Source: Clostridia bacterium (GTDB taxonomy: Bacteria; Bacillota; Clostridia; UBA1381). Taken from it: a DNA stretch of 40,967 nt. The notes beneath the pieces are model-generated. The model saw only the letters and a list, made by a program, of their open reading frames with translations, searched no databases and was not told the DNA's origin. This document shows, piece by piece, positions 2,441 to 6,628 of this stretch. The stretch's first letter is position 1, and each line of letters opens with the position of its first letter. The stretch lies in assembly GCA_017443895.1 (NCBI GenBank), contig JAFSXU010000038.1, positions 1 through 40,967 on the forward strand. The letters are read 5' to 3'. Position numbers and translations under genes: made by a program.

Positions 2441-2618
2441 ATCCCCACGACAAAGTGGTCTGCGCAAAAAGCGCCAAGATTGATTTATTTTGGATGCAGA
2501 ACGGAAAAAGAGCATTATTTTGTTCTATAAAAACGGCAGGAGCAAGCCCCTGCCCTACAAAGCGTTCTGCGCCACCGCCCCCACTACAGCGTAGGACTGG
2601 ATGATTTTAGATGCAGAA

Positions 2619-2673
2619 CGGAAAAAGAGCAGGCTCAATAGTATGTTGATACATTGAGTCTGCTCTTTTTTTG
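2619..2673 (-). terminator. Second stacked terminator hairpin
   Basis: On the minus strand AAAAAAAGAGCAGACTCAATG pairs with the mirror segment ending in TGCTCTTTTT, a long stem with a T tract. It lies in the middle unit of the tandem array and would back up the rpoC terminator. Confidence 0.7.
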
Positions 2674-2740
2674 TAGCTTTAGCGGTCTGCGCTAAAAACT
2701 CCGAAATGCGTAGGAGCGAACGATTTTTGATGCAGAACGG

Positions 2741-2787
2741 ATAAAAAACACCTTCGATAGTACAAAAGTACATCGAAGGTGTTTTTT
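2741..2787 (-). terminator. rpoC: Terminator of the rpoB-rpoC operon
   Basis: Inside the first hairpin unit after rpoC. On the minus strand AAAAAACACCTTCGATG pairs with CATCGAAGGTG-type sequence to give a stem of more than 12 bp followed by six T residues. The symmetrical A and T tracts mean it could also stop plus-strand transcription. Confidence 0.85.
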
Positions 2788-2824
2788 GTTCGTAACAAAG
2801 TGGTCTGCGCAAAAAGCGCCAGTC

Positions 2825-5800
2825 CTACTTAATTTCACTGTTGGGGACTTCCTTATTATCTATCGTGATGTTTATGTCTTTATACATACTCATACCGGTA
2901 CCGGCAGGGATGAGCTTACCGATGATAACATTTTCCTTGATACCGTGTAATGGGTCGATCTTACCCTTGATAGCGGCATCGGTGAGGACCTTGGTGGTCT
3001 CCTGGAACGATGCGGCGGATAAGAACGAATCGGTAGCAAGGGATGCCTTGGTAATACCCAAAAGAACAGGTGAGCCGGTAGCAAAGTTAGTACCGCCGTT
3101 CTTCTTTACACGCTCGTTTGCATCTTCAAGCTCGAACTTATCAACAAGTCCGCCGATAAGAAGGTCGGTATCGCCGGCGTCCTCGACTCTTACTTTTCTG
3201 AGCATCTGACGGGTAATAACCTCCACATGCTTATCATTGATATCAACACCCTGCATACGGTAAGTTCTCTGTACCTCACGGGTGATATATACCTGAACGG
3301 CATGCGCGCCGTTAATAGCAAGGATATCGTTAGGGTTAACAGATCCGACTGTGAGCTCGCCACCCTTTTCCACATAATCGCCGTCATGGACTTTGATTGA
3401 TGCGCCGTAAGGAATGGTATAGGTCTTTGCCTCGCCCAAATCATCATTCTGGATAGTTACCTCTCTCTTTCTTGCAGATTCAGATACGGTTACAGTACCT
3501 GCAATTTCTGAGATTATAGCAACACCCTTTGGTTTTCTCGCCTCGAAAAGCTCTTCGATACGAGGAAGACCCTGTGTAATATCGCTGCCTGCAGCAACAC
3601 CGCCGGCGTGGAAGGTACGCATTGTAAGCTGAGTACCCGGCTCACCGATTGACTGCGCCGCAATAATACCTACTGTCTCGCCGACATTTACAAGGTCGCC
3701 TGTTGCAAGGCTGACACCGTAACACTTAGCGCAAACACCAACTCTTGAGTGGCATGTAAGCACTGAACGGATTTTTACCTTTTCTATACCGCACTTGACA
3801 ATCTCATCGCCCTGCTTGTCGCTTATAAGCTCTCCGCCCTTGACGATAAGCTTACCTGTAACAGGATTTACAATATCCTCTCTTGCAGTTCTGCCGACAA
3901 TTCTGTCATACAACGGCTCGATTGATTCCTTACCGTCTGTAATCTCAACAACCTCTTCATAATCGTCTGTTCCGCAGTCAAGCTCACGAACGATAACATC
4001 CTGCGATACATCAACCAGACGACGGGTCAGATAACCTGAGTCGGCTGTTCTTAAAGCTGTATCTGTAAGACCCTTTCTTGCGCCGTGAGATGATACGAAA
4101 TACTCAAGTACATTAAGACCTTCACGGAAGTTTGCACGGATAGGAATTTCGACTGTTCTACCCTGTGTGTCCGCCATAAGTCCACGCATTGCGGCAAGCT
4201 GACGGATCTGGTTTACGGAACCTCTCGCACCTGACACAGCCATCATGTTGATCGGGTTAAATTCACCGAAATGCTCCATCATGGCGTCTGTTACCTTTTC
4301 AGATGCCTTCTTCCAAATCTCGATTACCTGCTTATATCTTTCCTCGTTTGTCAAAAGACCCATGTTATACATGCTTGTGATGCTTTCAACTTCCTTTTCG
4401 GCGTCTGCAAGGATCTCCTTCTTAGCCTCGGGAACGATGATATCCGACACTGATACGGTCAATGCACCGATTGTTGAATACTTATAACCTGTAGCCTTGA
4501 TAAGGTCAAGGATCTCGGCAGTCTCGGATGTGCCGTGTTCTCTGATACAACGGTCAATTATCTTACCTAATTCCTTCTTGCCGACTATCTGGTCAATCTC
4601 GTAATCAAGCTCCTTTTCGGGGTCTGTTCTGTCAACAAAGCCGATATCCTGAGGGATATTGTTGTTGAAGATTATTCTTCCGACAGTTGTCTCGATTATC
4701 TTTGACTTAACCTCGCCATGAACGGTCTTTGTTACAAGAACCTTAATCTTCTCATGGAGGGTTGCCTCATGGTTATCATAAGCCAAAACTGCCTCCTCGG
4801 GAGATGAATATGTCTTTGTAACAAGTGCCTTTGCCTCTGCCATAAGCTTATTTGCAGAGATTTGCAGTGTTCTGTTCTTGAACACGAGGGTTATCGGGTT
4901 AATTCTGATATTTGTTTCGTTTAAGGCAACATCCTCGTTCTCTTTTAAGAAGTTCATTGCCTGCGCAAGATCGGTAAAGCTCTTTATCGGCTCACTGTCG
5001 TCTATAAACTCGAAGCTCTCCTCCTGCTCGATATTTTCAAGTCTGTTTACAAGATAGTTATATTTCGTTTCATCAGCCAAAACTGCATCGATTATTCTGT
5101 CATAATGCTCTTTTGCAACCGTGAGATAGTATGAACCCAAAATCATATCCTGTGTAGGAACTGTTACAGGGTTACCGTCCTGCGGCTTTAAGAGGTTATT
5201 TGCAGAAAGCATCAAAAATCTTGCCTCTGCCTGCGCCTCGGGTGATAACGGCACATGGATAGCCATCTGGTCACCGTCAAAGTCCGCATTATACGCCGTA
5301 CATACAAGCGGATGAAGCTTTAAGGCGTGTCCCTCAACCAATCTCGGCTCGAATGCCTGAATACCCAAACGGTGAAGTGTAGGAGCACGGTTTAAAAGCA
5401 CGGGGTGTTCACGGATTACATCTTCAAGCACATCCCAAACCTCCGGCTTTGTACGCTCTACCATTCTCTTTGCGCTCTTTATGTTATGCGCAAGACCACG
5501 GGCAACCAGCTCCTTCATAACGAAAGGCTTAAACAGCTCGATTGCCATTTCTCTTGGCACACCGCACTGGTAAATCTTAAGCTCGGGACCTACAACGATA
5601 ACTGAACGGCCCGAATAGTCAACTCGCTTACCGAGCAAGTTCTGACGAAAACGGCCCTGCTTACCCTTTAACATATCCGAAAGTGACTTTAAGGCACGGT
5701 TTCCGGGGCCTGTTACGGTTCTTCCGCGACGGCCGTTATTGATAAGCGCATCAACAGCCTCCTGGAGCATTCTCTTTTCGTTTCTTATGATGATGTCGGG

Positions 5801-6628
5801 AGCGCCAAGCTCTAACAATCTCTTTAATCTGTTGTTTCTGTTTATAACTCTGCGGTACAGGTCGTTTAAGTCAGATGTTGCAAATCTGCCACCGTCAAGC
5901 TGTACCATAGGACGAAGCTCGGGCGGAATAACGGGAACCTCGGTTAAAATCATCCATTCAGGACGGTTACCCGATAATCTGAACGCCTCAACAATCTCAA
6001 GACGCTTAACCAATCTTGCTTTCTTCTGACCGGTTGAAGCCTCAAGCTCTGCCTTTAACTCCTCTGAAAGGGCTTCAAGGTTAATCTTTTCAAGAAGCTC
6101 CTTAATGGACTCTGCGCCCATGCCTGCCTTGAACTTATCACCGTACTTATCAAGGGCGTCACGGTATTCTGCCTCTGATAAAATCTGGTTTTGTTCAAGC
6201 TGGGTATTGCCTGCATCGGTTACGATGTATGATGCAAAGTATAAAACCCTCTCAAGCTGACGGGGTGATAAATCAAGGATAAGTCCCATTGATGAGGGAA
6301 CACCCTTGAAGTACCAGATATGAGAAACAGGAGTTGCAAGTGAAATATGTCCCATTCTCTCTCGTCTTACCTTGGACTTGGTTATCTCAACACCGCAGCG
6401 CTCGCAGACCTTGCCCTTAAATCTTATCTTTTTATACTTACCGCAATGACATTCCCAGTCCTTTGTAGGTCCGAAAATCTTTTCACAGAAAAGTCCGTCC
6501 TTTTCAGGCTTTAAGGTGCGGTAGTTTATAGTTTCCGGCTTTGTAACCTCGCCGTATGACCATTCTTTGATGGTTTCGGGTGACGCAAGGCCGATTTTTA
6601 TCGCTTCAAAGCTATTAAATTCTAACAT
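2825..6628 (-). CDS. rpoC: DNA-directed RNA polymerase subunit beta prime
   Basis: 1267 residues, a usual size for Clostridia. It forms the catalytic cleft of RNA polymerase with RpoB. Visible landmarks are the N-terminal zinc site C60-x-C62 with C75-x2-C78, the lid/rudder and bridge region with [16 protein letters not shown] at 335-350, the Mg2+-binding catalytic loop NADFDGD at 447-453, and the C-terminal zinc site including [11 protein letters not shown]. The start is an ATG with GGAGG 8 bases upstream, and the gene begins 34 bases after rpoB, so the two form one operon. The stop codon is followed at once by the tandem hairpin array that holds the terminator. Confidence 0.99.

Follow-up and report, generated by a model that had tools for sequence, protein, structure and literature searches.

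A tandem array behind rpoC and a dispersed, probably mobile palindromic repeat of Clostridia

The REP/BIME repeats of enterobacteria, which are associated with RAYT, are built on palindromes of 20-40 nt with a 5' GTAG-type tetranucleotide. About 11% of E. coli REPs lie within 15 nt of a stop codon, and REPs in this position stall ribosomes (PMC12306157). We analyzed a 40,967-nucleotide stretch of a Clostridia genome (the window), in which rpoC is followed by a tandem array of hairpin units. The repeated element is like REP/BIME in being a short intergenic palindrome 3' of genes, with imperfect stems, tandem clusters and many copies. In contrast to REP/BIME, the element is a nested three-way-junction unit of 117-350 nt that begins with GGGGCTG/TAGGACTG and has no GTAG motif, and it is not associated with Y1 or RAYT proteins; a GTAG-REP in the array is a separate insert in one unit, unit C.

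Non-autonomous IS derivatives and MITEs, such as Correia/nemis, RUP and the enterobacterial RU repeats, share with the element short inverted ends, sharp boundaries, dispersal and a lack of coding capacity. The element has terminal inverted repeats and near-identical, sharp-ended copies at unrelated loci, as MITEs do; it differs from MITEs in that no cognate IS sharing its ends turned up in the genomes checked, no target duplication was demonstrated, and its arms covary instead of decaying. Intrinsic terminators resemble the inner hairpin (P3) of the window genome, which has an A-tract, a GC stem and a U-tract right behind the stop codon. Sequence and folding place a GC hairpin with a U-tract in units A and B, but many relatives lack it, and the element differs from terminators in its conserved core, in an outer stem beyond the U-tract, and in a U-tract that only some members of the family have. 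Integron attC sites offer a comparison of working principle only: they are likewise stop-adjacent, strand-biased long hairpins with conserved boxes and a variable terminal structure. By inspection, however, the attC boxes RYYYAAC/GTTRRRY are absent from the element, which instead has outer arms GGGGCTGTYGC/GCRACAGCCCC and core GCAGAAC/GTTCTGC, and which does not lie in cassette arrays. By analogy, the element would work like the REP/BIME and MITE families and partly like terminators. Because it differs from RAYT-REPs in both GTAG motif and RAYT association, showed neither a cognate IS (in the genomes checked) nor a clear target duplication as expected of MITEs, and matched no Rfam family, we class it as an interspersed palindromic repeat outside any named family.

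The array behind rpoC and the anatomy of its unit

Unit sequences are written on the gene (minus) strand. The array has the following features:

2825-2827, minus strand: rpoC stop codon TAG (ORF 2825-6628), at the high end of the array
2711-2827, minus strand: unit A, directly 3' of rpoC (covariance model R1, 118.6 bits, E 4.1e-31); in order, P1 arm TAGGACTGG (beginning within the stop codon), core CTTTTTGCGCAGACC, P2 slot ACTTTGT, the P3 hairpin, core CCGTTCTGCATCAAAAA and the P1' arm
2738-2793, no strand assigned: P3 of unit A, inverted repeat I1 (91% complementary), by folding
2592-2709, minus strand: unit B (covariance model R1, 92 bits; inverted repeat I2), with the core as in unit A, P2 GCTAAAGC and P3 GAGCAGACTCAA..TTGAGCCTGCTCTTTTT
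2475-2591, minus strand: unit C, degenerate, with a box at 2493 and a disrupted P3
2535-2558, minus strand: GTAG-REP hairpin GTAGGGCAGGGGCTTGCTCCTGCC inside unit C, from sequence, flagged as terminator-like
2450-2476, minus strand: truncated fourth unit, left core only, 27/27 identical to 2795-2821

The TAG bases of the rpoC stop codon are also the first P1 bases of unit A. On the plus strand, the box GATGCAGAACGG lies at 2493, 2610 and 2729, and a GGTCTGCGC-type box lies at 2457, 2684 and 2802, with the variant GTTCTGCGC in unit C. The original prediction described a three-unit array with a 118 bp repeat, partly complementary outer boxes and unrelated inner stems. The array is real and slightly larger than claimed, with three units and a truncated fourth left end, and the boxes do pair, through a GCAGA/TCTGC stem. 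The tandem periodicity holds as well, but the spacings are 117 and 119 rather than exactly 118.

Folding gives each unit as a single long hairpin, imperfectly paired and containing a three-way junction. From the stop codon the order is P1 arm, CTTTTNGCGCAGANC, P2 slot, TACGAA, P3 stem, tip and P3 stem, TCCGTTCTGCATCNAAAAN and P1' arm. An invariant junction core (CTTTTNGCGCAGANC / GTTCTGCATCNAAA) thus joins three variable arms: an outer one (P1), one in a side slot (P2) and an inner one (P3). The P3 tip is conserved as GTAY-NNNN-RTAC; in unit A it is GTAC-NNNN-GTAC, and P3 reads as A-tract, GC stem, loop, stem and U-tract on both strands. Complete additional hairpins can be accommodated in P2 and in the P3 loop, and P2 ranges from a mini-hairpin of 2-3 bp (GCTAAAGC) to long hairpins; at L007, L008, L013 and L017 it is about 80-115 nt long with a terminator-like hairpin inside. 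Unit C keeps both core boxes and an 8-bp stem (GCAGAACG/CGTTCTGC), and its P3 is occupied by the GTAG-REP hairpin. Folding z-scores on the two strands were -8.2/-9.3 for unit A, -6.5/-7.8 for unit B and only -1.1/-3.9 for unit C. The P3 hairpins of units A and B are dissimilar, and B is therefore no fresh copy of A.

The REP hairpin in unit C is of the same type as a GTAG-type REP pair at 2318-2402 (GTAGGGGCAGG..CCTGCCC and GGGAGGG..CCCTCCCCTAC). Two divergent RAYT-type Y1 proteins (PKRKTIRLKHYDYSQNGYYFITICT) encoded elsewhere in the genome (C68:14114 and C8:10985) are likely partners of this pair. A composite dispersed repeat, AAATTTTGGTTTAGCGTACCAAT..AAATCGTAAATTGGTATGGTCGTAGGG, at 2270-2402 leads into the REP pair and is also found in this genome 3' of units at L009, L012, L024, L034 and L042.

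The letters of P1 and P3 vary freely, yet the arms stay paired through compensatory substitution. Among ten copies of the window genome, 26 of the 49 consensus pairs had compensatory changes on both sides, and 92.8% of cells were paired, compared with 76.4% after shuffling (0/500 shuffles reached 92.8%) and 38-49% when slid. Orthologous units of G000, the genome of the window species, and of its closest relative G001 also covary (L023 vs L058). The inner stems are thus not wholly unrelated: their letters differ as predicted, but they follow a common plan of A-tract, variable pairs, bulge and GTAY-NNNN-RTAC tip. With a strand-neutral pairing procedure, G.U exceeded A.C on the strand opposite to the mRNA in P3 (27:12 distinct events, p = 0.02). 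The core wobbles on that strand were 22:1 for G.U vs A.C, a count that is not independent because the copies share ancestry. If real, this bias would mean that the better-folding strand is not the mRNA strand, something not expected of a simple terminator.

Dispersal in the order and position at stop codons

The 2.72-Mb genome of the window species contains the box GATGCAGAACGG 17 times and a reversed control 0 times. The boxes, searched for in this genome and in relatives, are therefore not confined to the array, and a single local duplication is refuted. Covariance model R1, built from ten copies of the window genome, found about 37 model-strand copies there, many of them in tandem at 115-130 bp, with head-to-tail arrays on C10, C13, C21 (two loci), C33, C52, C60 and C71. 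We surveyed 95 species in 27 genera of the order, counting matches at E<=1e-6. Carriers were 29 of the 95 species and 12 of the 27 genera, with 1-35 copies each, and distribution was patchy within genera, congeners often having no copy at all. Named carriers among gut and rumen Clostridia MAGs include HAN068, E13__bin172, RUG13671, RUG12270, RGIG2264, SUG1513 and SUG1652. Left and right end patterns numbered 33/29 in G000, 36/36 in G041 and 36/24 in G042, against 0-4 for controls.

A further subfamily, also amplified, has ATTCTGCACTATTTTGCC as its right core and the hairpin GAGGCTGTTGC..GCAACAGCCTC; it was seen at L210, L218 and on contigs C30, C33, C55, C64, C77 and C98 of G013 and lies near contig ends, where assemblies break at repeats. 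In G004, a congener with no detectable units, a P3-like hairpin (AACGTACCATCGTACGCC, L101) with the same tip lies about 200 nt downstream of rpoC and is perhaps a diverged subfamily with another core. A phage origin was rejected: one viral contig matched the exact pattern (L152), but its surroundings held no unit by the covariance model.

For 68 distinct copies there was enough flank to determine position. Sixty lay directly 3' of a co-directional gene, and the next gene was convergent in 45. Fifty started between -9 and +13 nt from the stop codon of the preceding gene, and several of those beyond this range were second or third units of arrays. The proportion within about 13 nt of a stop codon is thus 50/68, compared with some 11% for E. 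coli REPs at a limit of 15 nt (PMC12306157). Ordinary terminator-like hairpins of the same genome, a non-random sample of 27, started a median of 13 nt from the stop codon. Since ordinary terminators also start near the stop codon, we conclude that the element occupies the terminator niche.

At the rpoC locus, G000 and G001 have the array; in G003, G004, G007 and G013 a plain terminator-like hairpin takes its place. It looks as if P3 in the window species replaces the ordinary rpoC terminator of its relatives, judging from these sequences. Unit A is orthologous in G000 and G001. Unit B has no counterpart directly after unit A in G001, where the sequence following unit A is that which follows unit B in G000; the number of units has therefore changed since the two species split.

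Evidence for copying and the search for a mobilizing enzyme

Copying is indicated in HAN068 (G042), where L140 and L202 match at 97.7% identity across 348 bp, have sharp ends and lie in unrelated flanking sequence. Their alignment begins exactly at GGGGCTG. The unit here has a long form of about 348 bp (GGGGCTG... ...CAACAYCCCC), which carries further hairpins at three places: P2, the P3 loop (CTATCGGCT..AGCCGATAG, CGCCACAGGCG and GTTTTGC..GCAAAAC) and the 3' side of P3. A simple hairpin, GGGGCTGTTGCTTAACGCAACAYCCCC, lies within its 3' end, and simple hairpins like it are found by themselves behind stop codons in G000 and G009. In G000, the simple hairpins L243-L253 (GGGGCTGTTGCATTAAAAATGTAGACAGTCCC and close variants) lie a few nucleotides after stop codons and may be the simplest forms related to the outer arms of the unit. 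The G009 site L208 (GGGGCTGTTGCTTTTTAACGCGACAGTCCCC) looks like an unfilled counterpart of sites such as L060, in which a unit lies between GTTGC and TTTTTAAC. As these sites are paralogous, they suggest rather than prove that the unit may insert into a hairpin loop. Terminal inverted repeats (GGGGCTGTYGC / GCRACAGCCCC) are present in G041, G009 and G013 and are reduced to P1 arms in G000. Flanks are A/T-rich with no constant target-site duplication; no strain-level pair of empty and filled sites and no clear target-site duplication was found, which we counted against mobility.

No mobilizing enzyme, no transposase enclosed by matching element ends and no recombinase adjoining copies was found in the genomes checked. 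Paired ends lay 77-290 bp apart, and no inverted end pair 0.7-3 kb apart was listed in 8 genomes (for G041, among the matches listed). For these genomes we rejected an autonomous IS with the same ends, as the pairs are too close and end-like sites do not flank transposases; most of the end-like GGGGCTGTTGC sites of G000 are not IS ends but simple hairpins next to stop codons. Y1 transposases were present in 14 of the 29 element-bearing genomes and in 35 of the 66 others, and so are not associated with the element across the 95 genomes. The copy-rich genomes G078, G085 and G086 have no Y1 transposase, and a RAYT/Y1 partner was rejected after RAYT loci in G000, G012, G034, G010 and G013 proved to have no flanking units. 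The sole adjacency seen between a P3-like hairpin and a RAYT-type gene was in G019 (L092, 3077-3140), where a weak hairpin (E 0.22) lies about 220 bp downstream of the gene. Rfam gave 0 matches in the window at the gathering score and otherwise only chance matches below threshold, and we found no description of the element among open-licence papers.

Competing explanations and a proposed mechanism

Taken together, we favor, with moderate confidence, the interpretation that the array consists of tandem copies of a REP/MITE-like palindrome that is dispersed, non-autonomous and probably mobile and that colonizes transcript ends. The strong covariation around an invariant core, also between orthologous G000/G001 units, the strict stop adjacency in a single orientation, the folding bias toward one strand and the ribosome stalling by stop-proximal E. 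coli REPs (PMC12306157) would also suit a functional 3'-UTR RNA or cis-element (protecting mRNA or affecting translation termination), or an RNA of the antisense strand, spread by ordinary duplication with mobility incidental. We consider this unlikely, given the patchy presence even inside one genus, the near-identical sharp-ended copies at unrelated loci, the variable hairpin content of the slots and the lack of an Rfam match. Plain intrinsic terminators, alike by descent and convergence, with the array arising by local slippage, are improbable. Such terminators would account for the P3 plan and its location, for simple GGGGCTGTTGC..GCAACAGCCCC-type hairpins that also follow stop codons and, through slippage, for the perfect 27-bp duplicate within the array. 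They need no invariant 12+10-nt core, three-way junction or P1 pairing downstream of a U-tract, however; P3 of other genomes has no U-tract, unit B is no fresh copy of A, and dispersal of the core already disfavors them.

The wobble bias, the fixed orientation next to stop codons and the bulges and loops at fixed places recall a single-strand hairpin substrate, like integron attC or IS200/IS605 ends, on whose folded strand, opposite to the mRNA, a recombinase acts. With attC boxes absent, Y1 transposases unassociated (14/29 vs 35/66 genomes) and no recombinase found adjoining copies, we hold this to be highly improbable. A mobile system with folded hairpins as both cargo and target, to which we give little credence, would have the folded strand opposite to the mRNA as active substrate; units would enter the loops of terminator hairpins already present next to stop codons, further hairpins would enter the slots of units, and transcript ends would grow by enzyme-driven nesting.

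Dispersed boxes and carriers in 29/95 species favor a family of mobile palindromes over the other options of the original prediction. A stacked terminator is plausible for the window genome, where P3 has an A-tract and a U-tract, but not for the many relatives whose P3 has no U-tract. Hairpin exchange is partly borne out by extra hairpins in defined slots of different copies (P2, P3 loop, P3 side) and by the REP hairpin inside the unit at 2475-2591, but most P3 differences look like compensatory point change and not wholesale swapping.

Under the preferred reading of a mobile palindrome, transposition, or some comparable way of copying, would spread the element, and copies would survive most readily at sites that tolerate a terminator hairpin or benefit from one. 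The window species would now use P3 as the intrinsic terminator of its rpoBC operon and for transcription arriving from the other side, and selection for pairing (for termination, mobility or both) would preserve the base pairs of P3 and P1 even as the sequences of these arms drift. From its sequence, P3 probably ends rpoBC transcription there as a bidirectional terminator-like hairpin. The excess of G.U over A.C on the strand opposite to the mRNA weighs against this terminator part, and since P3 of several relatives has no U-tract, terminator function is not general.

The family looks undescribed, probably mobile and able to serve as a gene's transcription end. If this is correct, uncultured gut Clostridia carry a sizeable repeat family at gene 3' ends, including that of rpoC, which appears to replace the terminators of the genes it colonizes. 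The simple hairpin, the 117-nt unit, the 348-nt nested unit and the tandem arrays would form a natural series in which to ask how palindromes spread, gain hairpins and keep their arms paired, and the family would bear on the automatic annotation of terminators and 3' ends in these genomes.
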